DNA of 64,000 nucleotides. Origin: Myxococcales bacterium (GTDB taxonomy: Bacteria > Myxococcota_A > Polyangia > Polyangiales > Polyangiaceae). The DNA is taken from the NCBI GenBank assembly GCA_004193285.1, contig SECP01000031.1, positions 1 through 64,000 of the forward strand, read 5' to 3'. Positions 35,153 to 52,709 of this stretch are shown here, piece after piece. A program made the position numbers and the translations under genes. The notes under the pieces are model-generated. The model did no database searches, was not told the DNA's origin, and saw only the letters and a list, made by a program, of their open reading frames with translations. Every line of letters begins with the position of its first letter. The first letter of the stretch is position 1.

Positions 35153-36103
35153 TCAGGCGGGCGCGGTGGCGCGCGCCAAGCGCTTGTCCCGGCGCATGGA
35201 GAGGAGCACCGCTCCGGCGAGGGTCAGGCAGATGAAGCTGAGGGAGAGCCAGATCGGGATCTTGATCCAACCCATCAAGAGCATCTTCACGCCGACGAAG
35301 CCGAGCACGAGCGCCAGCGCGGGCTTGAGGTAGTGGAAGCGCTGCACGAAATCCGCGAGGACGAAGTACAGCGAACGCAGGCCGAGGATCGCGAACACGT
35401 TCGACGTGAACACGATGAACGGGTCGCTCGTCACCGCGAACACCGCGGGGATGGAGTCCACCGCGAAGATGAGGTCCGTCACCTCCACGAGGACGAGCAC
35501 CAAGAATAGCGGCGTGGCCAGGCGGCGCCCGTTTTGCACGGTGAAGAAGCGCTGACCGTCCAGAGTGGGGCTGGTGGGCACGACCCGGGCCAGGAATTTG
35601 TACACCTTGCCGTCCAGCGGGGACTCTTCCGGCGCCTCGCCCGGCTTCTCCCGCCACAGCTTGATCGCGGTGAACACCAAGAACGCGCCGAACAGGTACA
35701 TCAGCCAGTGGAAGCGCGCGAGCAGGACGCTACCGGCGGCGATGAACCCCGCGCGCATCACCAGCGCGCCGAGCACTCCCCAAAACAGCACCCGGTGCTG
35801 CGAAGTTTGGGGCACTTGAAACGCCGTGAAGAGCACGACGAACACGAACAGGTTGTCGACCGACAGCGCCTTCTCGATCACGTAGCCAGCCGCGAACTCG
35901 AGCGCCCGCTCCTGGCCGAACATGAAGTACACGAGCCCGCCGAACACCGCCGCCAGCGCGACCCACACGAGGCTCCAGGTGAGCGCCTCCTTGACCTTGA
36001 CCGCGTGCGCGTGGCGATGAAACACGCCGAGGTCCAGCGCCAGCATGGCCAAGACGAAGGCTACGAAAGCGATCCAGTGAAGGGGGCTGCCGACGGAATG
36101 CAC
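35153..36103 (-). CDS. TerC/Alx-family membrane protein
   Basis: This is a 316-residue integral membrane protein with about nine hydrophobic segments. It carries the acidic intramembrane motifs of the TerC family: KALSVDNLFVFVVLF (about 90-105) and EVTDLIFAVDSIPAVFAVT (about 215-235). TerC/Alx proteins are linked to tellurite resistance, alkaline stress and manganese export. Metal ion export at the inner membrane is the likely role here. The central YLFGAFLVFTAIKLW and the cytoplasmic loop with KVYKFLARVVPTSP are typical. It is divergent from a LysR regulator, and the shared 164-base intergenic region holds a LysR-type dyad. I looked for a yybP-ykoY (manganese) riboswitch in the short leader and did not see one. 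Confidence 0.92.
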   Translation of the reverse strand: MHSVGSPLHWIAFVAFVLAMLALDLGVFHRHAHAVKVKEALTWSLVWVALAAVFGGLVYFMFGQERALEFAAGYVIEKALSVDNLFVFVVLFTAFQVPQTSQHRVLFWGVLGALVMRAGFIAAGSVLLARFHWLMYLFGAFLVFTAIKLWREKPGEAPEESPLDGKVYKFLARVVPTSPTLDGQRFFTVQNGRRLATPLFLVLVLVEVTDLIFAVDSIPAVFAVTSDPFIVFTSNVFAILGLRSLYFVLADFVQRFHYLKPALALVLGFVGVKMLLMGWIKIPIWLSLSFICLTLAGAVLLSMRRDKRLARATAPA

Positions 36104-36175
36104 TCGTGATCCTCGCTGAGAGAGGGAGTTTGCGCGTCGGCGTCACATCGCTCCAATAGATACGTAATATGCGCC

Positions 36176-36194
36176 GCATTGGCTAAACCGATGC
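36176..36194. promoter_or_regulatory. LysR-type operator dyad between terC and the LysR gene
   Basis: GCATTGG-ctaaa-CCGATGC is a 7-5-7 inverted repeat with one mismatch. It contains the T-N11-A core expected of LysR-family boxes. It lies 73 bases before the terC start and 74 bases before the LysR start, where a LysR protein usually binds to control itself and the divergent gene. A looser pair, GATACG (36159-36164) and CGTATC (36207-36212), flanks it. Confidence 0.55.
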
Positions 36195-36267
36195 AAAAGC
36201 CTGTGTCGTATCGGCCCAGCCTAAGCCGCCTTGACGCCCCGGCGCGGCCGGACCCATCCTTTCTGCC

Positions 36268-37161
36268 GTGGAATGGCTGAATTATCATCATCTTCTCTAC
36301 TTCTGGACCGCGGCGCGCGAAGGCGGCGTCACGCGCGCGGCCAAGAAGCTGCGACTGGCTCAGCCTACCGTCAGTGAGCAAATCAAGCGGTTGGAGGAGC
36401 TGCTCGGACATCCGCTCTTCGAGCGCAAAGGGCGCTCGCTGGTGCTGACGGATTTCGGACGCACCATCTTCGGCTACGCGGACGAGATCTTCTCCCTGGG
36501 CCGCGAGCTGATGGACGCGGCAAAGACTCAAGGCGCCGGTCGCCCACGGCGGCTGGTGGTCGGCGTCGCGGACGTGCTCCCCAAGCTCATCGTGTACCGG
36601 CTGCTGGAGCCGGCGCTGCGCTTGGGAATCGAGCTCGTCTGCCGTGAAGACTACATCGACCAGCTGCTGGCCGGCTTGTCCATCCACGAAATCGATCTGG
36701 TGCTGAGCGACTCCCCGGTGGGAGCGAACGTCGGCGTGCGCGCCTTCAATCACTTGCTGGGGGAGAGCTCGATCAGCTTCTTCGCGGTCAAGAGCGAGGT
36801 GCCGCGGCTGAAGCGCACGTTCCCGGCCTCTCTCAACGGGGAGCGATTCTTGTATCCGGAGGAGCAGACGGTCCTCCGCCGTTCCCTCGACCAGTACTTC
36901 GAAGACAGCGGCGTGCACCCGCTGTTCGCCGCCGAGTTCGCGGACAGCGCCCTGGCGATGTCCTTCGGTCAGGCGGGGGCCGGTATCTTCGCGGGACCGA
37001 CCGTGATCGAGCGCGAGATCAAGAAGCAATATGGCGTTGCCGTGATCGGCCGCGCCAAGCAGGTGCGTGAGCGGTACTACGCGATCAGCGGGGAGCGCCG
37101 ATTGGCGCACCCCGGCGTGCTCGCCATCTCCCAGGCGGCCCGGCGCCTGCTCAGCGCTTGA
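36268..37161 (+). CDS. LysR-family regulator, NhaR-like
   Basis: This 297-residue LysR-type protein has an N-terminal winged helix (about 6-65: NYHHLLYFWTAAREGGVTRAAKKLRLAQPTVSEQIKRLE) and a typical periplasmic-binding-like effector domain (about 95-290). The opening MEWLNYHHLLYFW and the phrases LIVYRLLEP, ELVCREDYIDQLLAGLSIHEIDLVLSDSP and GAGIFAGPTVIE closely follow NhaR, the regulator of sodium/proton antiporter genes. Here the neighbour is terC, not nhaA. Control of a metal or ion exporter is the likely role, inferred from divergence and the central dyad. The start is GTG. The stop overlaps the convergent lipoprotein gene by 11 bases. Confidence 0.9.
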   Translation: MEWLNYHHLLYFWTAAREGGVTRAAKKLRLAQPTVSEQIKRLEELLGHPLFERKGRSLVLTDFGRTIFGYADEIFSLGRELMDAAKTQGAGRPRRLVVGVADVLPKLIVYRLLEPALRLGIELVCREDYIDQLLAGLSIHEIDLVLSDSPVGANVGVRAFNHLLGESSISFFAVKSEVPRLKRTFPASLNGERFLYPEEQTVLRRSLDQYFEDSGVHPLFAAEFADSALAMSFGQAGAGIFAGPTVIEREIKKQYGVAVIGRAKQVRERYYAISGERRLAHPGVLAISQAARRLLSA

Positions 37162-37897
37162 GAGCGACCTTGTGGCCCGGCGTGGGGATCTCGCCGAGGA
37201 GCACCGTCGTATCGAACTTCGCGTGCTCCAGCTTGCGGCTGGAGGCTCCTAGGTCGAACGCCAGACCCCACTCCGCTCCCTCCGCTACCTGCACGAAGAA
37301 GGTGGTGGACTCTTTGCACCCTTTGGCGAAGCGCTCGATGGTGTCGCCCGTCATCGACAGGTCCGGTCCGGCCATGCCCTTGCTCCGCTTGCTGGCGGTT
37401 CCGCCGGAGAGCTTCCACACCGCGGTGCCATAGTCGCTCGTTACCATCCCGACCACACTGCAAGGGGGCGCTTGCACCTTGGCCTCCGGAACGAAGCGCT
37501 GGTCCGCGCTGAAATCCTTCCGCGTCTCGGTCCGGATCGTGATCGAGCTAGGGTTGGTCTTCCCTAGCTCGTCCAGAAACGTGACCACCCACGGCACCTT
37601 CGTCTGCCGGTCCACGATGAGGGTCACGTCCTTGCCTTCCAGCCACTTCTTCTGGTCGGCGAGCAGCTCGGTGAGCTTCGCTTTACCTTCCGGATGAATG
37701 AGGAGGGCGCGCTCCGTGCCGACCTTGGGGCTGATCGTGTCTATCTCCAGAACCGGGGGCGCGTCCGCCTTGGGCGCGGCGGCGACGGGCGCGTCTTCCA
37801 CCGCCGCCTCCTTTGTCGGCGGCTCTTTCTTCGGCGGCTCCTCGCAGCCCAAGATTGCCCAGCAGAGCCCGACGAGCGCTACTTCAAGTTGTCGCAC
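37151..37897 (-). CDS. Lipoprotein with ExbD/TolR-like periplasmic fold
   Basis: This 248-residue protein has a lipoprotein signal (WAILGC, Cys18) and a Lys/Glu/Pro-rich linker. The segment at about 60-120 (KLTELLADQKKWLEGKDVTLIVDRQTKVPW VVTFLDELGK...ITIRTET) matches the beta-alpha pattern of ExbD/TolR periplasmic domains. Those domains transmit energy from the inner membrane, but they have an N-terminal membrane anchor, not a lipid. The C-terminal half is not recognised and carries two cysteines. It overlaps the start of its upstream neighbour's last codons by 19 bases, so the two lipoproteins are translated from one message. Function is unknown. Confidence 0.6.
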   Translation of the reverse strand: MRQLEVALVGLCWAILGCEEPPKKEPPTKEAAVEDAPVAAAPKADAPPVLEIDTISPKVGTERALLIHPEGKAKLTELLADQKKWLEGKDVTLIVDRQTKVPWVVTFLDELGKTNPSSITIRTETRKDFSADQRFVPEAKVQAPPCSVVGMVTSDYGTAVWKLSGGTASKRSKGMAGPDLSMTGDTIERFAKGCKESTTFFVQVAEGAEWGLAFDLGASSRKLEHAKFDTTVLLGEIPTPGHKVALKR

Positions 37898-38664
37898 AGC
37901 GGCTCATTTCGCGAGAGGCGGATGGTGCTCACGCACACACTCTCGGTCTCGGTCTCGGGCAAGCAGATGCCAGACGCGCAGTCGCTGTCCGCCGTGCACG
38001 CTTCGCCGGTGCCGGAGCGCTCGATGCAGTGGCTGACCTCCGCGTCTTCCGCGTCGGGAACGCAGTGGTCGGTGGGCGCGCACTCGTAGTCGCCCTCGCA
38101 GGGCCGGGTCGTCTTGTAGCTGACGCAGTTGTCGTTGCAGTAGTAGCCTTCTTCGCAGACCTGCTTCACGCCCGTGCAGTCGTCAGCGCGCTCCACGACC
38201 TCGGGCTGCGCGCAAACGCCCGTGTCTGCGCTCTGCTTCTTGACGCACATGAAGCCATCCGCGGTGTTGCAGTCGCTGTTCTTGCTGCAATCGTCGCCGT
38301 CGTCGGCGGTGCCGCTGGAGAGCATGTCGCACGGGGCGTCGAGGTGGAGCACGACGCCTAGCTCGTCCGCGCTCAAATCGCCGTCTTCGTACGCGGCCGC
38401 TACTGCGCCGAGACAGCTCTCCGCGTGAACGCTGGAGTAGCTGCGGGGCACCAGGTCCAAGCACACGTCTTTTTGGGTCGCTTGGCACGCGCTCACCTTG
38501 GCCGTGCAGTAGTCGACGACCTTCGCCGTGCAGGCGGCTTCGGCCCACGCCTGGCAGAAGCCGTCGCGCGAGGCGAGCGGGTTCGGCGGCTCCTCCGGGT
38601 CGCTGCTACAGGCCAGGGGCAGGGTGAGGACGAGCGCGAACAAGGCGAAAAGCGGCTTCTTCAT
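37879..38664 (-). CDS. Cysteine-rich secreted lipoprotein
   Basis: This 261-residue protein has a lipoprotein signal (LPLAC, Cys19) and about two dozen further cysteines. The pattern (DDCSKNSDCNTADGFMCV, ADDCTGVKQVCEEGYYCNDNCV, RPCEGDYECAPTDHCV, GEACTADSDCASGICLP) is the Dickkopf/EGF-like C-x-S-D-C...C repeat. It is common in myxobacterial surface lipoproteins and often seen with protein-protein interaction roles. No enzyme motif is present. It lies first in a two-gene minus-strand unit with the ExbD-like lipoprotein. Confidence 0.75.
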   Translation of the reverse strand: MKKPLFALFALVLTLPLACSSDPEEPPNPLASRDGFCQAWAEAACTAKVVDYCTAKVSACQATQKDVCLDLVPRSYSSVHAESCLGAVAAAYEDGDLSADELGVVLHLDAPCDMLSSGTADDGDDCSKNSDCNTADGFMCVKKQSADTGVCAQPEVVERADDCTGVKQVCEEGYYCNDNCVSYKTTRPCEGDYECAPTDHCVPDAEDAEVSHCIERSGTGEACTADSDCASGICLPETETESVCVSTIRLSRNEPLCDNLK

Positions 38665-41604: not shown

Positions 41605-41662
41605 TGGAGCGCGCGGCCGCCCCGAAGAGCAGCCGCGCGCTCGGCGCACCGGGCAACGTTGC

Positions 41663-42169
41663 TTACGTGTGCGCGTGAGCGTGCTCCGGATCGACTACTC
41701 CTTCCTCATGCTCGAGCACGCCAGCAGGGTCGCCTTGTGTCTCGGCGTTGCGCCGAGATAACCAATGATCGAGCGACAATCGCCCGGAGCCGAAGACGGC
41801 AAACGCGGTCAACATCGCCAGCACCAGGGCCGCGAATTCCAGCGACTGCCCGGCGCTGAGCAGGCCCTCGCCCACGTGCACGAGCAGCACCGCGCCGATC
41901 AGCGGCGGCACTTGGAGCGCCGCTGCGACGCGCGTCCCCAAGCCCAAAGCTAGCAAGATGCCGCCGCACAGGTGAGCCGCCACCACGTACTGCGAAATCG
42001 CCAGCGGGACGAACCAGCTGTCCGTGCGCTTGAGGAACTCCAGCAGTACCTCGGGTCTGCCGATGAACAGTGCGCCGCGCACCATCAGCCCAACGCCGAG
42101 ATAAATACGCACGACGTCCAGCCCCAGGCTTGGGTCTTGCCACCACGCTCTCTTCGAATCGGATGTCAT
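41663..42169 (-). CDS. DoxX-family membrane protein
   Basis: This 168-residue protein has four hydrophobic segments in the DoxX pattern: DVVRIYLGVGLMVRGALFI, AISQYVVAAHLCGGILLALGLGTRVAAALQVPPLIGAVLLVHV and FAALVLAMLTAFAVFGSGRLSLD. DoxX proteins are small inner-membrane proteins linked to quinone, thiol or redox stress functions. The C-terminal tail ends in HAHAHT after an acidic stretch, a possible metal-binding tail. It is divergent from the next lipoprotein gene by 300 bases. Confidence 0.85.
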   Translation of the reverse strand: MTSDSKRAWWQDPSLGLDVVRIYLGVGLMVRGALFIGRPEVLLEFLKRTDSWFVPLAISQYVVAAHLCGGILLALGLGTRVAAALQVPPLIGAVLLVHVGEGLLSAGQSLEFAALVLAMLTAFAVFGSGRLSLDHWLSRRNAETQGDPAGVLEHEEGVVDPEHAHAHT

Positions 42170-42469
42170 CGCGCCTCCTGAAAGGGAAAAAGCGAGAAAC
42201 CTCCCGTACCAAAGTGAACGAAGAAACCGCGAGCCCCCAGCTCGCGAACCTCATTCTGTCATCGAACGCGGTCGCCGCCTATCGGTATCTCGCCCGTGAG
42301 TCGGAGTCAGCGCACGTGACGTGACGTGCTCGAGCGTCCGTGCGCCGTGTGGGCGCGTCCGCTCGCCAGGGAAAAGTGAGGAGTCGCGCGAGCCTAGGTG
42401 GATCCGCAGGCCTCCCGGCGCGAGGGGCGGAGCTGGCGGCGGCGGCGGCTTCCGGTGTAGCCTCGCGTC
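42170..42469. promoter_or_regulatory. Divergent region between doxX-like and lipoprotein genes
   Basis: These 300 bases contain no gene that I can support. At 42312-42329 there is a palindromic element, GCACGT-gacgtg-ACGTGC, which also reads as three CGTGA-type pentamers. It is a possible operator. Otherwise nothing stands out. Confidence 0.35.
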
Positions 42470-43204
42470 GTGGGCGGTGTACCCCAAGCCGTTGTATCTC
42501 TCGCGCTAGCTGCGCTCGTCAGCGGCATGCTCGTCCTCAGCTGTGCGGATGGCGAGTCCGCCAAGGCCAACGGTCGCGTCGCGCCGACTCGAGTCTCCGT
42601 GCGAGACATCGCTTGGGGGGGCGCAAGGGACGGAGCGGGAGGCGACGGAGGGGGAGGCGAAGCCGGGGCAGGTGACGCGCCGCTCAGCGCGGGTGGCGCC
42701 CCCTCGAGCGTGCCCACGGAGGGCGGCGGCGGCCAGGCCGAGCCCGGCGTCCTGCCCCTCGAGGGCAGCGGCGGGGAGCCGCCGAGCTGCGGAGACCAGA
42801 GCGGCGCGGTGTGCGGCGCGAGCATGGTGCCCGCTTCGGACCCGGCCATGCGTTACTTCTGTTCGCACGGCGACCTCATTGCTCAGGCGCGCTGTCCGGG
42901 CGTGTGCCTCACGACGAACAACTCCTGCGGTATGGGCAACGGCACCGGCGACGGCTCGGACGGCACTCCGCTAGGAGTCTGGCTGCACTGCCGCGAGTGC
43001 TTGTCCGTGGACTGCAAGGCTCCGCTCGTCGCGTGTGACGCTGACCCGTGGTGCGCAGCCCACATGGACTGCAAGGAGAGTTGCACCATCGACGAACCCT
43101 GCCTGTCCACTTGCCGCGCGGCGTTTGCAGAGGATGCGCTCATGGACGAGCTCGACCTCTGCGCCGCGACCACGAAGTGCCCGCCAGCGTGCGCCGGTAT
43201 TTGA
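42470..43204 (+). CDS. Secreted lipoprotein with Gly/Ala linker and Cys-rich domain
   Basis: This 244-residue protein has a lipoprotein signal (VLSC, Cys25), a Gly/Ala/Ser/Glu linker at about 40-105, and a Cys-rich C-terminus. The latter has 14 cysteines in patterns such as LHCRECLSVDCKAPLVACDADPWCAAHMDCKESCTIDEPCLSTC. The final segment resembles Cys-rich repeats of other myxobacterial lipoproteins, which suggests a surface binding role; no enzyme motif is seen. The start is GTG. It lies 45 bases upstream of the kinase gene on the same strand and could be the first gene of the signalling operon. Confidence 0.7.
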   Translation: MGGVPQAVVSLALAALVSGMLVLSCADGESAKANGRVAPTRVSVRDIAWGGARDGAGGDGGGGEAGAGDAPLSAGGAPSSVPTEGGGGQAEPGVLPLEGSGGEPPSCGDQSGAVCGASMVPASDPAMRYFCSHGDLIAQARCPGVCLTTNNSCGMGNGTGDGSDGTPLGVWLHCRECLSVDCKAPLVACDADPWCAAHMDCKESCTIDEPCLSTCRAAFAEDALMDELDLCAATTKCPPACAGI

Positions 43205-43249
43205 GCGCATGAGCAACCTTTGCTCGCCTCGTTGTCACGGAGCCACGCC

Positions 43250-44710
43250 ATGCTCGGTCTAAAGCCCGGCGTGCGCGTCGCGGGCCGCTACGAGCTTTTG
43301 CAGCCGCTGGGTGAAGGCGGCATGGGCGAGGTGTGGTCGGCGCTGCACCTCATTACTGGCAAGCGGATCGCGCTCAAGGCGCTGAAGGCCGACAAAGCCG
43401 CCCGCCCCGAGCTGGTTCACCGCTTCTTCCGCGAGGCGCGGGCCGCCACCGCCGTCACGCATCCGAACGTCGTTTCGGTGCACGACGTGCTGAGCTACGC
43501 GGGCGCGCCCGTGATGGTGATGGAGCTGCTGGAAGGGGAGTCGCTCGCGGAGCGGCTGCGCCGCGAAGGGCGGCTGGAGCTTCCTCGGCTGGCGGAGTTG
43601 CTCGTGCCCATCGTTTCCGCGGTCGGCACTGCGCACGCGCGCGGCATCGTTCACCGGGATTTGAAGCCGGAAAATATCTTCCTTTCGAGCTCGCCCAGCG
43701 GCGGCGTGATCCCCAAAGTGCTGGACTTCGGCATCGCCAAGCTCACGTACGACGACGCCGCGGGCCTCTCCGCGCTGACCCGCACCGGTTCCATGGTCGG
43801 TACGCCGTTTTACATGTCACCGGAGCAGGCGGCGGGCGAAAAAGACTTCGACCACCGCTGTGACGTGTGGGCTCTGGGGGTGATCTGCTTCGAGGCGCTG
43901 AGCGGAGCGCGCCCCTTCCAAGGCGACAATTTCGGTCAGGTGTTCAAGCGAATCATCACGGAGCCGGCTCCCTCGCTGAAGCAGCGGCGCCCGGAGTTAC
44001 CGCGCGCGGTGGTGGAGCTGGTAGACGGCATGCTGGCCAAGGATCGCGCCGCGCGCGCCGCGCTTTCGGAGGTGCTCGCGGTGCTCTCCCAACACACGGA
44101 CGTGCGCGCGCCGCGCTTCGGCGCGCCTCAAAGCGAGCTGCCGCCCGAGCCTGCGGCAGGCTTCACGCGCGACTCGCTGGAGGCCGCTCCCGCCCTGGAG
44201 CCGGTGGCGACCCTGGCCGATGCCAACGCGACTGCCGAAGAGCCCCTACCGGAATCTTTGCCGCCTTCGTCGCCGCTCCTGGAAACGCTCGGGGCCACCA
44301 CTCTGGGGGACGCGGTGCGGCCGAGGCAGCGCCGAGCCCTGCCCCTCGGTTCGCTTGCGCTCGGCGCCGCGGCCTTGCTCACGGTAGCGAGCGGTATCTG
44401 GTGGAGCTTACCTCGGCCGTCGGCTGCGCCAGCGCGCGAGCCGTCGCCACCCATCGCGGCCCGAGCGGCGACCCCGCCACCCGCGCCTTTCGAGGCCCCC
44501 GCGCCGACACCGCCCGCGTCGGAGCCGCCGCCCGCCGCCTCGCCGGGGAAGCCGCTCGCGTCCCACGTGCCGCGCCTGCTCGCTGCGCCAGGCGTCGCCA
44601 AGCTGCGCGAGGCGGCACCTAGCGCCTCCGCCTTGCCGGCCCGCGGGGAGCCAGAGCCCCCCAAGAAGCTCCCGGGTGGCATCTTGGATCAGGACCGTGC
44701 GCCATTCTGA
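43250..44710 (+). CDS. Hanks-type Ser/Thr protein kinase with one membrane segment
   Basis: This 486-residue kinase has its kinase domain at about 10-285. It includes the Gly loop LGEGGMGEVW, the lysine IALKALK, the catalytic loop IVHRDLKPENIF, the metal-binding DFGIAK, the activation segment GSMVGTPFYMSPEQ and DVWALGVICFEAL, so it should be active. A Pro/Ala/Glu-rich juxtamembrane linker leads to a membrane helix (about 364-388, GSLALGAAALLTVASGIWW). A roughly 95-residue Pro/Ala-rich extracytoplasmic tail without a known sensor domain follows. It heads a run of overlapping genes ending in an FHA-domain AAA+ regulator, a natural reader of its phosphothreonine signal. The ATG at 43250 is preferred because the kinase domain starts directly after it. 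Confidence 0.92.
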   Translation: MLGLKPGVRVAGRYELLQPLGEGGMGEVWSALHLITGKRIALKALKADKAARPELVHRFFREARAATAVTHPNVVSVHDVLSYAGAPVMVMELLEGESLAERLRREGRLELPRLAELLVPIVSAVGTAHARGIVHRDLKPENIFLSSSPSGGVIPKVLDFGIAKLTYDDAAGLSALTRTGSMVGTPFYMSPEQAAGEKDFDHRCDVWALGVICFEALSGARPFQGDNFGQVFKRIITEPAPSLKQRRPELPRAVVELVDGMLAKDRAARAALSEVLAVLSQHTDVRAPRFGAPQSELPPEPAAGFTRDSLEAAPALEPVATLADANATAEEPLPESLPPSSPLLETLGATTLGDAVRPRQRRALPLGSLALGAAALLTVASGIWWSLPRPSAAPAREPSPPIAARAATPPPAPFEAPAPTPPASEPPPAASPGKPLASHVPRLLAAPGVAKLREAAPSASALPARGEPEPPKKLPGGILDQDRAPF

Positions 44711-45716
44711 CCTCCGCTTATGGCTCGGCATTTCGCTGTCGGTCATCGGTGCGGTCGCGGCGCCAGTCGCGGCGCAATCGGTGGAAGAGCCGGTGCAGGT
44801 CGAGCAAGCGCGCGCGCTCTTCCTCGAAGGGCTGAGCGAGGTTCGTAGAGCGCATTGGGGCGAGGCGCTCGCTGCGTTCGAGCGCTCTCAAGCGCTACGC
44901 GCGCACCCTCTGACTACCTACAACATCGGTGCGTGCGAGCGCGCGCTGGGCCGGTACACGCGCGCACGTCGTGCCCTGGAGAGCGCGCTTTCCGGGGCAG
45001 GGGCGGACGAGCTCCCGCCCAGCGTGGTGTCCGACGCGCGCGCGTTCCTTCAGGAGATCGAGCAGCTCCTGGTGCGGCTTGCGGTCACGGTGGAGCCGGC
45101 CGGCACGCGCATCGCGGTGGATGGTCGCGCGCTCGAGCCGGAGCCGTCGCCCGGCGGCGCGCCGTCGCTCGTCGCCGGCACGCTGCCGCCCGGTCGCGGC
45201 GTGATCGCGCCTTCCGGCCGCTTCTTCCTCCTCGCAGATCCTGGCGTGCACGTCGTCACTCTGTCTCGTCAAGGCTACGGCGACGTCGTCGTGAACAAGA
45301 CCTACCGCCCCGGGCAAGTCGCAGTGGAGCGCTGGGTCCTCTCGGAGCTACCCGCGACGATTCGCATCTCTTCCAACGAGGCGCGGGCGCTCGTTAGCGT
45401 CAACGGCAAGGACGTGGGCGTCGCTCCCATCGACGTCCTCCGTCCGGCGGGGCTGCACCGCGTCGAGGTGAGCAAACCTGGCTTCGTGCCTTACGTCGCG
45501 GACGTACGGGTCAAAGCCGGGCAAGAGAGCGCACTACGCTCGACTCTCGTGCCCGAGAAGCAGTCACTCCTCGGGCAGTGGTGGTTCTGGACGGCGGCGG
45601 TGGCGCTCGCGGGAGGAGTCGCCACCGCGACTTACTTCGCGGCCCGCAGCGAGCCCGCCCCGCAGCGCCCCCCGCTGGACGGCGGCAGCTTGGGCTGGAC
45701 GGCGAGGATCCCGTGA
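44697..45716 (+). CDS. PEGA-domain envelope protein with TPR-like N-terminus
   Basis: About 339 residues. A signal peptide (LWLGISLSVIGAVAAPVAAQS) is followed by a TPR-like helical region (about 25-120: ARALFLEGLSEVRRAHWGEALAAFERSQALRAHPLTTYNIGACERALGRY). Beta-rich segments come next, with a PEGA domain at about 220-288 (NEARALVSVNGKDVGVAPIDVLRPAGLHRVEVSKPGF...V). A C-terminal membrane helix (WWFWTAAVALAGGVATATYFAA) ends the protein. PEGA proteins with this TPR-PEGA layout commonly accompany Ser/Thr kinases in myxobacteria. The start is uncertain: GTG at 44697 overlaps the kinase gene by 14 bases, and GTG at 44676 by 35. The stop overlaps the next gene's GTG. Confidence 0.75.
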   Translation: MRHSDLRLWLGISLSVIGAVAAPVAAQSVEEPVQVEQARALFLEGLSEVRRAHWGEALAAFERSQALRAHPLTTYNIGACERALGRYTRARRALESALSGAGADELPPSVVSDARAFLQEIEQLLVRLAVTVEPAGTRIAVDGRALEPEPSPGGAPSLVAGTLPPGRGVIAPSGRFFLLADPGVHVVTLSRQGYGDVVVNKTYRPGQVAVERWVLSELPATIRISSNEARALVSVNGKDVGVAPIDVLRPAGLHRVEVSKPGFVPYVADVRVKAGQESALRSTLVPEKQSLLGQWWFWTAAVALAGGVATATYFAARSEPAPQRPPLDGGSLGWTARIP

Positions 45717-47722
45717 AGCTGGTTTCGCTCGCGTTCGCGCTGCCATGGCTCGTCGCCTGCTCGGGGAAGCCGGCCGAGCTCGACCCCTACGGCGAGGTGC
45801 TCGTCCAGGTGGACACGAACTTGCGCGTCCCGCACGCAGTCTCGCGCGTCAGGCTGGACTTGTTCGACGCCGAGCGACGGTGGCTGGAGTCTCGAGACTT
45901 CTCGACGCCGGAGCCGAGCGACTTTCCCCTGAGTTTCAGCATTTACGAAGCGGCCAGCGGCGGTCCGCGCACCGCTTACCTTCGCGCGCGCGGCTACACC
46001 GACGACCACGTGCGCGATTACCGCGGAGAGCGCTTCGAGGAGCGCGTTGCCTTCGAGGCGCCCACCACGAAGGCTTCGCTCGAAGCCGCATGCTCCGACG
46101 CGCCCGTGCTCGCGCTCGGAGAGCTACGGACGCTTCGTCTGCGAGGCGAGGCTTTCCCGGAGGGCGGCCTTTCGTGCACGGCGAGCGCAGGCGATTTCGA
46201 CAAGCGCACATCGAGCGGGCTCGCGGTGTTTCGCTTGCCGATCGAGGACGCGGGCCGCTACCGCGTCAGCGTGGCGACCTCGAGCCCCGGCGTGGAGTGG
46301 GCGCCGGTTGCAGACACGTTGCTCTCGCTGCGCACGGTCTGTGCGGATGCGCAGAGCGAGCTTGCATGCAACGACGACGAGCAGTCCGGGCAAGGCGCTC
46401 TCTCGGGGCTGAGCCGCACGCTGGAGCCGGGCGACTACTTCGTGCTCATCGGCAACGTGGCGCCTGGGCCCATGGACGTGGGCGTGTTCGTCCAGCAGCG
46501 TGACGCGTTCTCCAACGTGCCCACCGACGATCCGGTCGAGCTCGCGCGCGAGGAGCCGCGCCTGATCGTCGCGGGCGTGGATCAGACCCCGCAGCTCGAG
46601 CCCGAGCCGTACCTAGCCGTAGACCGCTTGGCGCGCATCGACGTGGAGCCAGGGGTGCAGCGCACCGCGCAGCTGCTGCTGGAGGGCGAGTGCCTGGGCA
46701 CGATGGCGGACCTGCAGGGTCTGCGGAGCTGCCTTTCGGAAGAGGGCGTGCTCAGCGCGGTCGAAGCGGAACCGCTGGCGGCGGGGCGCGCGCGCGACCG
46801 CGAAAGCGTCAGCGCGGTCGGCACTTGGGCCAAGTACGAGCACCCGGGCTGCGCGGAGGCGACGACGCCCACGACGCCGGGCCTGTACGACGAGCGGGTG
46901 TGCGTGACCGGGGGCGCGTTCTTGCTCGGTGACGCGACGCTGATCGAACGCGGCGCGGACGGAGGCTACCCGGAGCGGCTGGCCGTCATTCCCAGCTTGT
47001 TCGTCGACCGCTACGAGTACACGGTCGGCCGCTACCGCGACGCGCGAGCGCGCGGCTTCGAGCCGCCGGACGGAGGTCCGTTCAACAACTTCGAACGCAT
47101 CGCGCTGGACGCCGCGGACCTCACGCGGGCTTGCTCGTACAGCGAGCTACTGGACGGCTCGCCGCAATTTCCGGAGCAAGAGGACTTTCCCCTCTCGTGC
47201 GTCTCCTGGCTGACCGCGAGGGCGCTGTGTGAGCTGGACGGCGGGCGCCTGCCGACCGTCGCGGAGCGAGAATACGTAGCCTCCGCAGCCGGCCGCGACT
47301 TCGAGACCGCGTACCCGTGGGGCGAGCGCAAGCCCGCCTGCAACGAGTCGCTGTTCGGTCGCTGGTACGAGCCGAGCCACGGCAGCACGGACTGCGCCGA
47401 GGAGGCTTCAGGCCCGGCGCCGGTGGACGCGGAGCCGTGGGCATCGTTCGATGTCACGCCGGAGGGAGTGGTAGGCCTCGGTGGCAGCCTGGCGGAGTGG
47501 ACCGCCGACAGCCACCGCGCGTATTCGGACCCTTGCTTCGAATCGCAGCCGCACTTCTCGCCCCGTTGCGATGAGGCGGAGGCGCCGCTGCGCACCATTG
47601 CCGGCGGCTCCTGGCGTAGCCCCGCCGCCGGCACGCGCGCGGCGTCGCGCACGGGAGGCGCGGTGGCCGGAATCGACCCCTGGGTCGGCTTCCGCTGCGT
47701 CTACGAGGTTCCCGAGCCATGA
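45713..47722 (+). CDS. Lipoprotein with C-terminal FGE-fold domain (probably not catalytic), first of pair
   Basis: 669 residues with a lipoprotein signal (LVAC, Cys16). The N-terminal beta-rich region begins GEVLVQVDTNL and is shared in outline with the next gene. The middle (about 120-280) resembles a pre-peptidase-like domain (GDYFVLIGNV, CNDDEQSG). Residues about 398-669 are a formylglycine-generating-enzyme (FGE/SUMF1) fold: CVTGGAFLLGD, FVDRYEYTVGRYRD, PLSCVSWLTARALCELDGGRLPTVAEREY, YPWG, LGGSLAEWT, AGGSWRSP and WVGFRCVYE. The active-site cysteine segment of true FGE (S-x-L-C-x3-Y-C after the GGS) is replaced by WRSPAAGT. Enzyme activity is therefore unlikely, and a binding or structural role is inferred. 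Translation is coupled to both neighbours. Confidence 0.8.
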   Translation: MKLVSLAFALPWLVACSGKPAELDPYGEVLVQVDTNLRVPHAVSRVRLDLFDAERRWLESRDFSTPEPSDFPLSFSIYEAASGGPRTAYLRARGYTDDHVRDYRGERFEERVAFEAPTTKASLEAACSDAPVLALGELRTLRLRGEAFPEGGLSCTASAGDFDKRTSSGLAVFRLPIEDAGRYRVSVATSSPGVEWAPVADTLLSLRTVCADAQSELACNDDEQSGQGALSGLSRTLEPGDYFVLIGNVAPGPMDVGVFVQQRDAFSNVPTDDPVELAREEPRLIVAGVDQTPQLEPEPYLAVDRLARIDVEPGVQRTAQLLLEGECLGTMADLQGLRSCLSEEGVLSAVEAEPLAAGRARDRESVSAVGTWAKYEHPGCAEATTPTTPGLYDERVCVTGGAFLLGDATLIERGADGGYPERLAVIPSLFVDRYEYTVGRYRDARARGFEPPDGGPFNNFERIALDAADLTRACSYSELLDGSPQFPEQEDFPLSCVSWLTARALCELDGGRLPTVAEREYVASAAGRDFETAYPWGERKPACNESLFGRWYEPSHGSTDCAEEASGPAPVDAEPWASFDVTPEGVVGLGGSLAEWTADSHRAYSDPCFESQPHFSPRCDEAEAPLRTIAGGSWRSPAAGTRAASRTGGAVAGIDPWVGFRCVYEVPEP

Positions 47723-49131
47723 AGCGCGCGCTCTCGCTCGCGACCGCGGCTGCGCTCGTCGCCTGTGGCGGTGAGACGACGCTGCCCCCGCAAGGGCAGA
47801 TCTTGCTCTACATCGATACGGACGCGCCGCTCGCGCCCGCGCCCGGCAGCCCCGCGGAAGTGGGTCTCCCGCCGGCGCTCTTCGATCGCCTGCGCATCGA
47901 GGTGCGAGACCAGGAAGCTCCGGAAGGCTCTCCGCCGCTCGCCCGCCGCGACTTTCCGCTGCATCGAGGTTATTTTCAGGGGGCGCCGGAGTCGGTGGGC
48001 ATCGTGCCCGAGCGGAGCGGCGGCCGCCTGCAAGCGCGCGCGCGCCTCTACCGCAGCGTGAACGTCCGGGCCGGTGAGCTCGCCGTCTCGAGCACGGTGG
48101 ATGTCGTCCAGGAGCTGCCGCCGGTACCGGCGGAAGGCATCGTCAGGGTGCTGATGGAGCTGCGGATGGAGGACACCGGCATGCCGCGCTCCTTACCCCG
48201 AGCGGAGCCGCTCGACGCAGCGCCGCGAACCTCCGCCGTCGGCTCCTGGAGCGGCGCGGCGCAGCGGCCTTGCTCGGGCGAGGCCGGAGAGGGCGAGCTT
48301 TGCGTGCCTGGCGGCGCGTTCTGGATGGGCGACCCGGCCTTGCGTGACGACGGTGAGGTGGCGGACGCCGCTCGCGAGCGACTCGTGGTCGTGTCGCCGT
48401 TCTTCATCGACGCTCACGAGGTGACGGTAGCCGAGCTGCGCGCTCACGCCGACGACATCGCCTCCGCCGGTGCCGAGCTGCCCCCCGAATGGAGCGGCAG
48501 CAGCGCGGGCATCTCCGAAGACGATTTTTCTACGTACACTCCCGGCCCTTCGTCGAGCGACCCGGTGGACCAGCAGAGCGCGCTGCCGGTCAATGGCGTG
48601 TCCTGGCACACCGCGCGCGCTTACTGCCGCGCCGTCGGTAAGGACCTGCCGAGCGAGGTGATGTTCGAGTTCTTGGCGAGCGGTCGCGGTCGGGAGCAGG
48701 AGTACGTGTGGGGCAACGACGAGCCTCAGTGGTGCGACGGGAGCGTCGTTGCGGCTCGCGCTGGCTTCGGAGCGTACGCCACGTTCGACGGTACGTGTCG
48801 TCCGGCGGATAGCATCGGGGGACCCCTGCCGATGGGCGGCGGACTCCGTGACCGCGCGCAGCTCGCGCAAGGCGAGGTGCTGGATCTGGCTGGCAATTTG
48901 AGTGAATGGACGCTCGACTGGTTCAACACGGAGAACGAGGGCGTCTGGGCGACGAGCAGGGTGCTCACGGACCCGGTCGCCGACGAGCGGGGCGCAGCCG
49001 GCGAGCGGCGCACGCTCCGCGGCGGTTCCTGGCGCGGCCGCTACGTCCAGCTCCGCGCGGCCACGCGCCTGGGCCGCGAGCCCGAGATGGTCAGCCGCGC
49101 CGTCGGTTTTCGGTGCGCGCGGCGTCCGTAG
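47719..49131 (+). CDS. Lipoprotein with C-terminal FGE-fold domain, second of pair
   Basis: 470 residues with a lipoprotein signal (LVAC, Cys16) and a start like its neighbour's (GQILLYIDTDAPL). It lacks the middle domain of the first gene. Residues about 195-470 are FGE-like: CVPGGAFWMGD, FFIDAHEVTVAELRAH, PVNGVSWHTARAYCRAVGKDLPSEVMFEFLASG, YVWGND, VLDLAGNLSEWTLDWF, LRGGSWRG and RAVGFRCARR. As in the first gene, the catalytic cysteines after GGSW are absent (RGRYVQLRAATR). The two lipoproteins probably arose by duplication. They sit outside the cytoplasm, between a membrane kinase and an FHA regulator, which suggests envelope sensing or surface binding. The ATG overlaps the upstream stop (ATGA). 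Confidence 0.8.
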   Translation: MKRALSLATAAALVACGGETTLPPQGQILLYIDTDAPLAPAPGSPAEVGLPPALFDRLRIEVRDQEAPEGSPPLARRDFPLHRGYFQGAPESVGIVPERSGGRLQARARLYRSVNVRAGELAVSSTVDVVQELPPVPAEGIVRVLMELRMEDTGMPRSLPRAEPLDAAPRTSAVGSWSGAAQRPCSGEAGEGELCVPGGAFWMGDPALRDDGEVADAARERLVVVSPFFIDAHEVTVAELRAHADDIASAGAELPPEWSGSSAGISEDDFSTYTPGPSSSDPVDQQSALPVNGVSWHTARAYCRAVGKDLPSEVMFEFLASGRGREQEYVWGNDEPQWCDGSVVAARAGFGAYATFDGTCRPADSIGGPLPMGGGLRDRAQLAQGEVLDLAGNLSEWTLDWFNTENEGVWATSRVLTDPVADERGAAGERRTLRGGSWRGRYVQLRAATRLGREPEMVSRAVGFRCARRP

Positions 49132-49168
49132 CGCGCAGCCGCCCGCTCTGACTAAGATACGAGGCCTC

Positions 49169-50581
49169 ATGCCGCGCGCCCTCACCCTCACCGCGACGCT
49201 GGATGGCGTGGACGCGGAAAGCGGCGGAACGGCGCAGGAGCCGGCCGCCCCTGCGCTCGTGCTGATGTGGAGCGAGCACGAGCCGGCGCGCGTGGGTGAG
49301 CTGATCTTCGCCGAGCGGCTCCCCACGTTCTTCGGGCGCGACACCGAGGCCGCGGAGGTGCGAGCGGCGCTCGTGCGCCAGCGGCCGGGCAAGAACGAGA
49401 TCATGGCGCCCCCCGCCAATGCGTTCCTTTCGCGTCGGCACCTCAAGCTCAAGTCGATCGAGGACGACGGCATCGCCCTCGAGTGCCTCGGCAAGCGCCC
49501 ACTGCTCGTGAACGGCACCGAGCAGGAGCGAGCGGTGGCGCGGCCCGGTGACTGGGTGGAGGTGCGCGGCTTGTACGCGTTTTTCTGCACGGAGCGGCCC
49601 CGTCGACTACCCGAGCACGTCGAGCCAGCTCACCCGTTCGGCGAGCCGGACCTGGACGGCATCGTGGGCGAGAGCCCCGCGGTCTGGGACTTGCGGCGTC
49701 AAATGGCGTTCGCGGCGCCGCGCGCGGCTCACGTCCTCGTGACCGGGCCGAGCGGCTCGGGCAAGGAGCTCGTGGCGCGTGGAATCCACCGTCGCTCCGG
49801 GCGTAGGGGGCGGGAGCTGGTGTCGCGCAGCGCGGCAACGCTGCCGTCTGGTCTCATCGACGCGGAGCTCTTCGGCAACATCGCGAATTACCCGAACGTC
49901 GGCATGCCGGAGCGGCCCGGGCTGCTCGGTCAGGCGCACGGGTCCACCCTGTTTTTGGACGAGATTGGCGAGCTCTTGCCGGAGCTGCAAGCGCACCTCT
50001 TGCGCGCGCTGGACGCCGGTGAATACCAGCGCCTCGGCGATGCGCGGCCGCGCGTCGCCGACTTGCGCTTGGTCGCAGCCACCAACCGCGCGCCCGCGGA
50101 GCTGAAGCCGGACTTGGCGGCCCGCTTCACCCTGCGCATCGAGACCCCCGGCCTCTCGGAGCGCAGCGAAGACGTGCCGCTGCTGGCTCGGCACCTGGTC
50201 CAGCGCATCGCGCGGCAGGACGCCGCGATCGCGCGCCGCTTCCTCGGCGCAGACGGCTCGCCCCGCTTCACGGTGGAGCTGGTGCGGGCTCTGTGCCGCC
50301 ACCCGTACGGCACTCACGTCCGCGAGCTCGAGGGCTTCCTCTGGCGAAGCCTGCAAGGGAGCGGGGGTGAGTCGTTGGAGCTCACGCCCGAGCTTGCCAG
50401 CGTGTTGCGCGCTCCCCTCGAGTCGCGGGCGGCTCAGTCCGTGAGCGCGGCGGAGCTGCGCGACTGCCTGTCACGACACGGCGGGGTGAAGGACAAAGTG
50501 TGGCGGGAGCTGGGGCTCAGCAGTCGTCACGCGCTGCACCGGCTGATGAAGAAGCTGGGCGTGGCCGACGCCGCCGACTGA
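49169..50581 (+). CDS. FHA-AAA+ (sigma-54 activator-like) regulator lacking the GAFTGA loop
   Basis: This protein has 470 residues. An FHA domain (about 50-140: FFGRDTEAAEV, FLSRRHLKLK, ALECLGKRPLLVNGTE) should bind phosphothreonine. The AAA+ domain (about 165-385) has Walker A VTGPSGSGKELVARGIH (near 192), ELFGNIANYPNVGMPERPGLLGQAHG, Walker B TLFLDEIGEL (near 261) and LRLVAATN. Where sigma-54 activators have GAFTGA, this protein has NYPNVG, so normal contact with sigma-54 is doubtful. A Fis-type helix-turn-helix (DCLSRHGGVKDKVWRELGLSSRHALHRLMKKLG) ends it. It is probably a DNA-binding ATPase controlled by the upstream kinase. The ATG at 49169 lies 37 bases after the previous stop and avoids overlap with that gene. 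Confidence 0.85.
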   Translation: MPRALTLTATLDGVDAESGGTAQEPAAPALVLMWSEHEPARVGELIFAERLPTFFGRDTEAAEVRAALVRQRPGKNEIMAPPANAFLSRRHLKLKSIEDDGIALECLGKRPLLVNGTEQERAVARPGDWVEVRGLYAFFCTERPRRLPEHVEPAHPFGEPDLDGIVGESPAVWDLRRQMAFAAPRAAHVLVTGPSGSGKELVARGIHRRSGRRGRELVSRSAATLPSGLIDAELFGNIANYPNVGMPERPGLLGQAHGSTLFLDEIGELLPELQAHLLRALDAGEYQRLGDARPRVADLRLVAATNRAPAELKPDLAARFTLRIETPGLSERSEDVPLLARHLVQRIARQDAAIARRFLGADGSPRFTVELVRALCRHPYGTHVRELEGFLWRSLQGSGGESLELTPELASVLRAPLESRAAQSVSAAELRDCLSRHGGVKDKVWRELGLSSRHALHRLMKKLGVADAAD

Positions 50582-50586
50582 GCCAA

Positions 50587-51174
50587 TCACAGCGCTTCCA
50601 GCGGCACCGTGCGGCGGAGCTCGGCGATGGCCTGGGTGCGGCTCTTCACGCCCAAGGTCTCGTATACCTCGTGCAAGTAGGTCTTCACCGTCGCTTCACG
50701 GAGACCGAGCTGCTCGGCGATCTCTCGGTTTTTGAGACCTTGCGCCACGAGCGCGAGGAGCTGCTGCGAGCGCAGCTTGAAGCCGTAGCGCTCGCGCAGC
50801 CGCCGCGAAAATAGCGCCCGGCTCGGCGCGTAGTGGCGTAGCCACACGAGCACCCGGCCGCCCGGCGCGCGGTCTACCTCCAGCAAGCGATGCTCGGGCA
50901 AGCTCGCGAGCCGCGAATGCGCCGCGCAGGCGCCGCCGGCGAGGCGAGCTCGAGCGGCGGCTTCCAGCTCGGGAACGAGTCGTCCGCCTTCGGTCAACCC
51001 CTGGGCGTCGCCGTGCTCAGCCAAGACCGCCAGCGCGGCATCGCATTCGATGACCAGCTGCCCGCTGAGGGCGAGCGAGCGTTGCAAGAGCTTCGTCTCG
51101 AGATCGGAGGAGGGAGCCACAGCCCCGACATCGCAAGGCGTATGCCACGGCCGAGGCAGCGAAAATTGCGGCAT
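50587..51174 (-). CDS. LuxR-type DNA-binding regulator
   Basis: This 195-residue protein has a LuxR/GerE helix-turn-helix at about 128-190 (LRSQQLLALVAQGLKNREIAEQLGLREATVKTYLHEVYETLGVKSRTQAIAELRR), typical of stand-alone or NarL-type regulators. The N-terminal 120 residues (two short Ala/Leu/Arg-rich segments, LVIECDAALAVLAEHGDAQG and HRLLEVDRAPGGRVLVWLRHYAP) are not a recognisable receiver or autoinducer domain. It is divergent from the alpha/beta hydrolase fusion. A perfect 13-base direct repeat lies just upstream of its start. Its stop is six bases from the convergent FHA regulator. Confidence 0.85.
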   Translation of the reverse strand: MPQFSLPRPWHTPCDVGAVAPSSDLETKLLQRSLALSGQLVIECDAALAVLAEHGDAQGLTEGGRLVPELEAAARARLAGGACAAHSRLASLPEHRLLEVDRAPGGRVLVWLRHYAPSRALFSRRLRERYGFKLRSQQLLALVAQGLKNREIAEQLGLREATVKTYLHEVYETLGVKSRTQAIAELRRTVPLEAL

Positions 51175-51190
51175 TTACCTCGGTCAGCGG

Positions 51191-51224
51191 CGCGCGCGCG
51201 CACGGCCGCGCCGCGCGCGCGCAC
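51191..51224. repeat. Direct repeat of CGCGCGCGCGCAC upstream of the LuxR-type gene
   Basis: Identical 13-base copies lie at 51191-51203 and 51212-51224, 21 bases apart (two helical turns), inside the 155-base divergent region. The first copy is 17 bases before the LuxR-type start codon. Such spacing fits two dimers on one face of the DNA. The alternating CG runs could also adopt Z-DNA. TTGACT follows at about 51242 and may be part of the plus-strand promoter. Confidence 0.45.
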
Positions 51225-51329
51225 CTGGTGAACTAACTTTGGTTGACTGACTTGGTCGTCCGCCACTGGCACTCTCGCGGGGGCCGATTTAAGACCAGGG
51301 TGCGGTGGGGGAGTGAAAGCGGTAGTCCC

Positions 51330-52709
51330 ATGACGAGAGCACAGATCCATTTCTGTTCGGTTGGTTCCCAGCGCGTTGCCTTCGCGGTTCAAGGCTCGGG
51401 TCCGGTGCTGGTGCTCGGTCCAGCCTGCGTCAGTGACTTGGAGCGGGATACGGAAGAGCCCCGCCTGCGCGCATTTTACGAGCGCCTAGCCGCGCGCTTC
51501 ACCCTGGTTCGGTACGATCACACCGGTGTGGGCTCGAGCGATCGCGGCCGCGATGACTTCTCGTTCGAGCGGGAGGTGGCAGAGCTCTCGAGCGTGGTGG
51601 ACTGCGTGTCGCGGCAGCAGCCGGTGGTGCTGATGGGCGGCTCCTTCGGAGGCCCAGTGGCGACAGCCTTCGCCGCGCGCCACCCAGAGCGCCTCTCGCA
51701 GCTCGTTCTGTACGGCACGTTCGGCGCGGGCGAGCAGCTCGCGCCCGCAGGCGCCCAACGAGCGATCACGGACATGGTGCGCGCGCATTGGCGGCTGGGT
51801 GCGCGCATGCTCACGTCCATCGTCGCGCCTGGTGTGTCGGAGGAGGAGGCGAGCCGCTACGCGCGTACTCAGGTCGGCGCGGTCAGCGCGGAGACCGCCG
51901 CGAATTTGCTGCAAATGATGTACCGCATGGACGTGAGGCACGAGGCGGCCCTCTTGCGGACTCCCACCCTCGTCATCCACCGCCGGCACGATCGCTCCAT
52001 CCCGCTCGAGGCGGCGCGGGACGTCGCGTCGCGCATCCCTGGCTCGGGGATGATCACCCTCGAGGGTCAGGTGCACTTACCGTGGTTCGAGAGCAGTGGC
52101 GTGCTGGACGCCGCTCTGGAATTTCTCAACGTGGACGACGCGGACGAGCGTAGCCGCGAGAGCGGTGAGCACGCGGAGCTGATCCGCAGCGGAGACGTGT
52201 GGGCCATCGGCTGGGCTGGCAGTCGTCAGCACCTCAAGCACGCCAAGGGCCTGTCGGATATCGCGACCCTCGTGCAGAGTCCCGGCACTGGCATCGCAGC
52301 GCTCACCTTGGCGGAAGGCATGACGCACGCGGGGCTGGAGGTGTCGGCGCAGCCACTGCTGGACGATCAAGCGCGGCGTGAGTTTCGCCAGCGTCTGCGG
52401 GACATCGACGTCGAGCTGGGTGAGGCGGAGGCGCACGTGGACCTGGCGCGGCAAGAAAAGCTCACCGTCGAGCGCCAAGCGTTGCTCTCGGAGCTCTCGG
52501 CGGCCGCTGGCCTTGGGATGCGTAAGCGCGTCTTCGCGAGTGACGCGGAGCGCGCGCGCAAGGCCGTCACCGCACGGCTCCGCGACGCGATCGCGCGGGT
52601 TCGGAGCGTGCATCCTACCCTGGGCGAGCACCTGGACGGCTCGATAGTCACTGGCCTCACTTGCATGTACCGCCCCGCTCGCCCCATCCGCTGGCGCACC
52701 GCAGGGTAG
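51330..52709 (+). CDS. Alpha/beta hydrolase fused to a regulator-type C-terminal domain
   Basis: 459 residues. Residues about 1-280 form an alpha/beta hydrolase: GSGPVLVLGPACVSDLERD, TLVRYDHTGVGSSDRG, VLMGGSFGGPVATAFAARHPERL (Ser near 106), IHRRHDRSIPLE (Asp) and GQVHLPWF (His). Residues about 295-455 are a different domain: IRSGDVWAIGWAGSRQHLKHAKGLSDIATLVQSPGTGI, DDQARREFRQRLRDIDVELGEAEAH, ERQALLSELSAAAGLG, AERARKAVTARLRDAI and HPTLGEHLDGSIVTGLTCMYRP. From memory, this domain ends large AAA/TPR regulatory ATPases and cyclase-like proteins, where it may bind DNA or relay signals. The hydrolase may sense or cleave a small ligand. It is divergent from the LuxR-type gene. The ATG at 51330 is chosen. 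Confidence 0.8.
   Translation: MTRAQIHFCSVGSQRVAFAVQGSGPVLVLGPACVSDLERDTEEPRLRAFYERLAARFTLVRYDHTGVGSSDRGRDDFSFEREVAELSSVVDCVSRQQPVVLMGGSFGGPVATAFAARHPERLSQLVLYGTFGAGEQLAPAGAQRAITDMVRAHWRLGARMLTSIVAPGVSEEEASRYARTQVGAVSAETAANLLQMMYRMDVRHEAALLRTPTLVIHRRHDRSIPLEAARDVASRIPGSGMITLEGQVHLPWFESSGVLDAALEFLNVDDADERSRESGEHAELIRSGDVWAIGWAGSRQHLKHAKGLSDIATLVQSPGTGIAALTLAEGMTHAGLEVSAQPLLDDQARREFRQRLRDIDVELGEAEAHVDLARQEKLTVERQALLSELSAAAGLGMRKRVFASDAERARKAVTARLRDAIARVRSVHPTLGEHLDGSIVTGLTCMYRPARPIRWRTAG

Follow-up and report, generated by a model that had tools for sequence, protein, structure and literature searches.

Enhancer-binding proteins with an FHA domain were reportedly described in Myxococcus xanthus by Jelsbak et al. 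in 2005, and these proteins have been proposed to read phosphorylation by Ser/Thr kinases. FHA-type enhancer-binding proteins of myxobacteria are already known, and the regulator studied here is a variant of that kind. In Mycobacterium tuberculosis, FHA genes are clustered with Ser/Thr kinase genes, and EmbR-PknH is a pair of an FHA protein and such a kinase (PMC1262709); on the single-pass Ser/Thr kinases of Planctomycetota, TPR and sulfatase-modifying-factor domains are mostly periplasmic (PMC11032199); and enhancer-binding proteins without the GAFTGA motif, namely NtrC of Rhodobacter capsulatus and Caulobacter and VspR of Vibrio, are reported to act at sigma-70 promoters (PMC10274813). Here, we analyzed a stretch of 64,000 nucleotides (hereafter the window; contig SECP01000031.1, positions 1 to 64,000) from the assembly GCA_004193285.1 of a Myxococcales bacterium (Polyangiaceae), in which a Ser/Thr kinase, a PEGA protein, two proteins with the fold of formylglycine-generating enzyme (FGE) and an FHA-AAA+ regulator are encoded in a row.

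These five genes, together with that of a Cys-rich lipoprotein in front of them, look like a six-gene operon resembling an envelope sensor. As judged from gene neighborhoods, conservation applies to two separate sub-units, a kinase-PEGA-FGE set (unit A) and the regulator subfamily with its kinase neighbors (unit B), which are joined in the window and in a congeneric genome, G006. Our tentative reading, to which we give slightly less than an even chance, is that one operon encodes a split receptor-kinase system wired to an FHA-AAA+ regulator. A wider claim, that an undescribed class of split receptors and a separate, sigma-54-independent FHA-AAA+ family have been fused here into a full phosphothreonine pathway from envelope to DNA, with a change of partner kinase, is conceivable and on balance doubtful.

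A row of six genes

Five plus-strand genes were confirmed at 43250..50581, with junction spacings of -14, -4, -4 and +37 bases, in agreement with the overlaps of 14, 4 and 4 bases and the 37-base gap given by an earlier, sequence-only reading of this DNA; its assignment of the products to a kinase, a PEGA protein, two FGE-fold lipoproteins and an AAA+ protein was likewise borne out by Pfam, and that of the FHA domain by a family profile. The lipoprotein gene (42470..43204) stands 45 bases 5' of the kinase gene, and the start codons, from lipoprotein to regulator, are GTG, ATG, GTG, GTG, ATG and ATG. The features, with the evidence for each in brackets, are as follows:

42470..43204, plus strand: Cys-rich lipoprotein, 244 amino acids, GTG start (45-base spacing, G006, Cys-rich motif counts)
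43250..44710, plus strand: transmembrane Hanks-type Ser/Thr kinase, 486 amino acids (Pfam, catalytic motifs, tree grouping)
43778..43804, plus strand: activation-loop threonines T177, T179 and T185, candidate phosphothreonine sites for the FHA domain (sequence positions)
44697..45716, plus strand: PEGA protein, 339 amino acids, GTG start (PEGA above cut-off, TPR below)
45713..47722, plus strand: FGE-fold lipoprotein 1, 669 amino acids, GTG start (Pfam FGE-sulfatase; lipobox by eye)
47719..49131, plus strand: FGE-fold lipoprotein 2, 470 amino acids (Pfam FGE-sulfatase; lipobox by eye)
49169..50581, plus strand: FHA-AAA+ regulator with a weak C-terminal helix-turn-helix (HTH), 470 amino acids (Pfam, family profile, subfamily without GAFTGA)
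49250..49615, plus strand: putative divergent FHA region, amino acids 28-149, with G56-R57, S88-R89-x-H91 and N115-G116 (family profile against PDB)
49886..49921, plus strand: L1-loop region NYPNVGMPERPG, the site of GAFTGA in sigma-54 activators (sequence position)

The kinase matches Pkinase of Pfam with an E-value of 7.3e-50 (kinase domain, amino acids 14-276), its Hanks-type motifs are intact (GEGGMGEV, ALKAL, HRDLKPEN and DFG), and a single hydrophobic segment, starting at amino acid 363, precedes a Pro/Ala-rich tail. No recognized sensor domain was found by Pfam scan and motif inspection; PASTA repeats gave no Pfam match, and the match to the PknB-type PASTA model NF033483 reached 244.5 bits for a cut-off of 450 and covered only amino acids 8-272. 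T177, T179 and T185 presumably resemble the autophosphorylated threonines of PknB. In the next protein, the PEGA domain was matched with an E-value of 8.9e-18 (Pfam) and TPR under the cut-off; an N-terminal signal-like segment is the sole one over the hydrophobicity threshold, and a hydrophobic stretch that we noted by eye at the C-terminus lies under it. This protein is probably exported and sits outside the membrane, in which case the cytoplasmic kinase could reach just its short C-terminal tail; being largely beyond reach of the kinase, its phosphorylation would be a poor first test.

Both FGE-like proteins contain an FGE-sulfatase domain according to Pfam, the first at amino acids 393-663, after a long N-terminal region (E-value 4.3e-24), and the second at amino acids 192-468 (3.1e-33). 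Following the rule used for lipoprotein anchors, we read by eye the lipoboxes LVAC-S and LVAC-G, respectively; in relatives, a pattern search gave a lipobox in just some of the FGE-fold proteins, which we therefore call FGE-fold proteins and not lipoproteins. The Pfam matches, which are above cut-off, and weak NCBIfam matches to SenA, EgtB and PvdO would fit a scenario in which the two lipoproteins are enzymes, active in sulfatase activation or in ergothioneine- or PvdO-like oxidation, and simply controlled by the kinase. This scenario is very improbable: neither protein reached any NCBIfam cut-off (the nearest model, GldK TIGR03525, gave 72.2 and 37.6 bits against 350) and, where formylglycine-generating enzyme has its paired-cysteine motif, paired active-site cysteines were found in neither of the segments GGSWRSPAAGTRAASR and GGSWRGRYVQLRAATR of the two proteins. 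Because both domains lack these cysteines, they are probably binding folds and not enzymes.

Recurrence of the two units

The PEGA subfamily gave 57 matches in 43 of the 183 genomes of the order (E-value at most 1e-50) and, with one weaker match (L153; labels in L denote our loci and labels in G our genomes), 58 PEGA proteins in 44 genomes served as anchors of unit A. A kinase gene lies immediately 5', on the same strand, in 37 of the 45 anchors whose upstream flank reached 1.5 kb or more, 13 of 58 having been removed for short flanks. When 5 kb were required on both sides, which removed 26 of 58 and left 32 anchors, 29 had a kinase within 3 kb; 27 had one or more FGE genes within 5 kb, 21 had two or more, and 19 combined a kinase with two FGE genes. 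Gene order and orientation within unit A are variable among loci.

The regulator subfamily is sharply set off, the sorted scores in 59 genomes dropping from 226 to 150 bits with none between. It comprises 78 matches in 53 of the 183 genomes of the order (E-value at most 1e-60) and is present in 35 of 377 genomes sampled from the phylum. The regulator table has 79 rows; one of them, L245 (220 bits), is a non-member by its loop and was kept in the denominators. A kinase domain occurs within 400 bp of the regulator in 32 of 73 rows (1.3 expected; 6 rows removed for short flanks) and, when the limit is set at 1.3 kb, in 45 of 70 (3.9 expected, or 7.6 at double density, p about 1e-26; 9 rows removed), the expected counts being based on 22 kinases per Mb, roughly the median of first-look counts, and being probably upper bounds. 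The neighbor profiles were trained on the first of these same loci, gaps were measured between matched domains, the genomes are non-independent and many of them draft, and neighbor counts depend on contig ends. The two genes are divergent in 26 of the 45 cases, and the kinase is 3' on the same strand in 13. In a small control with flanks of up to 1.5 kb, 1 of 13 generic AAA+ loci had a kinase versus 8 of 16 family loci. A second regulator copy in the same genome as the window (L044) has a kinase 67 bp 3' on the same strand. Scanning named genomes with the regulator alignment returned 80 loci with 29-41% identity and no named family member; these loci were taken as generic AAA+ regulators, with the loop not checked.

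The two units are joined in G006, in which the spacings (45, -14, -4, -4 and 37) and the start codons are all identical to those of the window. The proteins of the six genes are 72-84% identical, and their ratios of nonsynonymous to synonymous substitution rates (dN/dS), from lipoprotein to regulator, are 0.25, 0.16, 0.13, 0.12, 0.16 and 0.15; all six genes are under purifying selection (dN/dS 0.12-0.25). G006 DNA aligns to positions 41606-42261 and 42325-52699 of the window in the same order, and to 35152-37997 in inverted orientation; this alignment shows that both genomes inherited the locus and that it did not arise by misassembly. The region 5' of the lipoprotein gene is alike only in patches. 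These data bear on the suspicion that the genes form no functional unit and are chance neighbors, as may arise where kinases and AAA+ regulators abound; this genome has 168 first-look kinase and 87 first-look AAA+ regulator candidates. With kinase-PEGA-FGE sets and kinase-regulator pairs both far above density, overlapping genes, and identical spacing in G006, we regard such a coincidence as highly unlikely.

Among the 78 order-level places analyzed (77 fetched plus the window), with neighbors of the regulator sought within 6 kb and a downstream flank of frequently just 3-4 kb, a PEGA gene and an FGE pair stand beside the regulator in the window and G006 only. The sole other case is a weak FGE match 5.3 kb from the regulator in L189; elsewhere, a PEGA protein and a regulator on one contig are at the nearest about 246 kb apart (G169), and short contigs could hide cases. 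The sequence-only reading had proposed that co-occurrence of the five families be sought in Polyangia genomes, and what we found is an order confined to the window and G006 and not conserved beyond them, the first of the two outcomes that this reading had named as counting against its proposal. As for the route that it had drawn from the kinase to the FHA regulator, the five-family order fell away, and the link itself is likely because members of the subfamily have a Ser/Thr kinase within 1.3 kb much more often than expected (45 of 70 against about four).

No Pfam or NCBIfam model matched the Cys-rich lipoprotein above cut-off. Its gene is probably the first of the operon because the 45-base spacing is kept in G006. 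The earlier suggestion that the gene at 42,470 may belong to the operon gains from this spacing; it loses from the other unit-A kinases, as a lipoprotein immediately 5' occurs in the window and G006 only, that is, 2 of 37. A search of 39 genomes with the repeat region of the lipoprotein gave matches only in the window, in G006 and in G022, there at a single site about 1.1 kb away from an FGE pair. Of 65 unit-A loci, those of the window and G006 counted, 13 contain a Cys-rich motif like that of the lipoprotein, as against 3 of the 76 loci that have the regulator only (Fisher p 0.003), a count that is indicative, since the pattern was composed after inspecting the window and L157 and the genomes are related. 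In the three regulator-only loci, L154, L155 and L157, the motif lies 163-172 bases ahead of the kinase domain; in the window it lies 171 bases ahead of it. The regulators of these three loci are among the closest beyond the genus (55-58% identity), and behind them come small Cys-rich secreted proteins, then a kinase, an order that echoes the lipoprotein-kinase pair of the window. Cys-rich repeat proteins with two to three copies of CxxCx4C(C) were also seen near unit A in L134, L146, L147, L196, L213, L214 and L216.

The regulator subfamily

The regulator matches Sigma54_activat of Pfam with an E-value of 3.9e-36, and the AAA+ domain was found in all 22 aligned members, with invariant Walker A and Walker B residues. 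The C-terminal HTH is weak (HTH_8 at 0.075 in the window regulator, and at 0.01 or below in 8 of 22 members). A single-sequence structure model had a mean predicted local distance difference test score of 34.9 and was not used. We addressed the nature of the N-terminal region with a profile built from 20 of the 22 aligned members and run against PDB sequences. Its 12 best matches are chains of GarA, aprataxin, Mb1858, Rv1827, TB39.8 and OdhI, all of which we take to be FHA proteins; the two best E-values are 0.0018 and 0.0020, the others range from 0.0036 to 0.076, designed proteins come next, and the matches fall mainly on the second half of the region. R57, S88 and R89 are invariant (22 of 22), and position 91 is Q in 18 members and H in 4, among them the window regulator. 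The phosphothreonine-binding motifs of FHA domains are GR, SxxH and NG (PMC1262709). On the strength of the family profile, the N-terminus would be a divergent FHA region.

None of the 79 rows has GAFTGA or GAFSGA at the L1 loop, where the window carries NYPNVGMPERPG; a Y/F-P/T loop is found in 78 of them, and the remaining row is the non-member L245. One may still argue for an ordinary FHA-type sigma-54 enhancer-binding protein, as in M. xanthus, whose variant L1 loop would keep contacting sigma-54; the strong Sigma54_activat match and the Walker residues, invariant in 22 of 22, are consistent with this, as are the FHA enhancer-binding proteins known from M. xanthus. Because the whole subfamily lacks GAFTGA, a role as ordinary sigma-54 activator is unlikely from the sequences, and we find this explanation decidedly improbable: not only is the motif found in no row, but also 78 of 79 share another, common loop, and proteins without GAFTGA have been reported to regulate sigma-70 promoters (PMC10274813).

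Joining of the units and relation to described systems

In a FastTree analysis of 138 kinase domains, the window kinase groups into a supported set of 45. Of the 36 unit-A kinases, 28 fall into this set, together with 17 others; the 47 regulator neighbors all lie outside it. In this quick tree, neither the unit-A kinases nor the regulator-neighbor kinases form a single clade. In the simplest history, a unit-B regulator was placed behind a unit-A operon in an ancestor common to G006 and the window genome. Should the regulator be functional there, it would have accepted a new partner kinase; of all our claims, none is more interesting and none less tested. On the other hand, the regulator may be a local transcription factor that came by chance under the promoter of unit A, with its FHA domain answering another kinase and with no direct line to the FGE and PEGA proteins. 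A window kinase outside the lineages that accompany the regulator subfamily, and a join found in two genomes only, agree with this alternative; the exact spacing kept in G006 and purifying selection on six genes do not, and partner exchange is plausible because the subfamily adjoins kinases in varied orientations and these kinases are not one clade. All in all, we hold a chance placement under the promoter to be unlikely, if by no means far-fetched.

Several observations weigh against a split receptor-kinase system wired to the regulator. Only two genomes, both of one genus, are known to have the units joined, and AAA+-type regulators show no clear enrichment within 5 kb of unit A (7 of 32 anchors against roughly 3 by density). 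No kinase lies within 1.3 kb of 25 of the 70 regulators; the window and G006 are among these misses, their kinase domain being 5.1 kb 5' of the regulator. Moreover, the window kinase is outside the lineages usually adjoining the regulator, and partner recognition may not carry over. As to the FHA region, the Pfam FHA match is below cut-off in the window regulator (E-value 0.091) and reaches 0.01 or below in 2 of 22 members, the best PDB E-value is just the 0.0018 given above, the probability was 28% when the profile was compared with two canonical FHA regions, and 13 of 22 members keep the N at position 115.

The observed parts, the conservation of the whole set between the window and G006, the recurrence of kinase, PEGA and FGE genes, and the kinase neighbors of the regulator subfamily would be compatible with the following split-receptor pathway. 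The two FGE-fold lipoproteins, possibly with the Cys-rich lipoprotein, would form a ligand- or surface-binding complex outside the inner membrane, and the PEGA protein, anchored C-terminally, would pass the state of this complex to the single-pass kinase. The kinase would then autophosphorylate its activation-loop threonines or phosphorylate the regulator, whose FHA domain would bind the resulting phosphothreonine. Such binding may alter oligomerization or DNA binding of the AAA+ and HTH parts, and transcription would be changed without the canonical GAFTGA contact to sigma-54. We infer each of these signaling steps, as we do the existence of a signal, the FHA binding, a direction of regulation and target genes. 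If this is true, unit A would supply an input side and the FHA-AAA+ subfamily an output side, both of them recurrent, and a single operon would suffice to rebuild this small set; the genomes of the order have 34-356 first-look Ser/Thr kinase candidates each (59 genomes), and to our knowledge inputs and outputs are known for few of these kinases.

Other AAA+ regulators were seen near unit A. That unit A recruits AAA+ regulators in general was considered and rejected, 7 of 32 being not clearly above density. With domains read by eye, the seven within 5 kb are those of the window and G006, L138 (canonical FHA, GAFSGA), L195 (FHA, GAFTGA), L150 (GAF-like, GSFSGA), and L223 and L227 (receiver type); another, in L205, lies 4.2 kb from unit A and was removed by the flank filter. 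In G050 (L138:4566-14201), a convergent FHA-AAA+ regulator of a different kind, which has GAFSGA and, as judged by eye, clear FHA motifs, comes after unit A (FGE pair, kinase and PEGA); here unit A may have become paired with an FHA regulator independently. In G035 (L150:2-6169), one strand carries in succession an FGE-fold gene, the gene of the AAA+ regulator with GSFSGA, one for a single chain with two kinase domains, and the unit-A PEGA gene.

Around the operon of the window, a convergent LuxR-type gene lies 5 bases past the end; a promoter scan found none, and a terminator scan found 5 against 4.1 in shuffled sequence. Positions 1-24400 have a G+C content of 43-51% versus 63-72% from about 26 kb, and their large open reading frames are eukaryotic-looking: ACBP with ankyrin (2025 amino acids), WD40, an ANAPC5-like protein and a TPR protein of 4232 amino acids with an NPHP3-like match. 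The ACBP-ankyrin frame had no match at an E-value of 1e-10 or below in 7 other genomes of the genus, and the contamination figure of the assembly is 7.78%. This part is probably protist DNA in a chimeric contig; a very odd island would be the alternative.

In the excerpts of the open-licence literature that was searched, no description was found of unit A, of an FHA subfamily without GAFTGA, or of the two joined together. The FHA enhancer-binding proteins of M. xanthus combine, like the window regulator, an FHA domain with a sigma-54-type AAA+ domain; the window subfamily differs from them by the lack of GAFTGA, by a divergent FHA region (mostly Q for H) and by recurrent kinase neighbors. EmbR is not known as an AAA+ protein, and we know of no PEGA or FGE partners of EmbR-PknH. 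In that pair, as in the window, an FHA protein is encoded with, or phosphorylated by, a Ser/Thr kinase (PMC1262709). Chlamydial kinases with a C-terminal NirV/DUF323 domain, which has the FGE fold, also tie a Ser/Thr kinase to this fold; they are fused, and the excerpt that describes them mentions neither PEGA nor an FHA regulator (PMC1262709). The Planctomycetota kinases have, like the window set, a cytoplasmic kinase and a TPR or FGE fold outside, but on one fused chain, whereas the window has separate genes with PEGA and lipoprotein anchors (PMC11032199); they thus offer a parallel that supports a split receptor. The absence of GAFTGA across the subfamily makes it testable how an AAA+ regulator driven by phosphothreonine, and not by a receiver, controls transcription. 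NtrC and VspR are likewise AAA+ proteins without the sigma-54 contact loop, but they keep an aspartyl phosphorylation site as input, where the window regulator would use its FHA domain, and the loop that is deleted in NtrC is replaced in the window subfamily by a conserved YPNxGM segment (PMC10274813).

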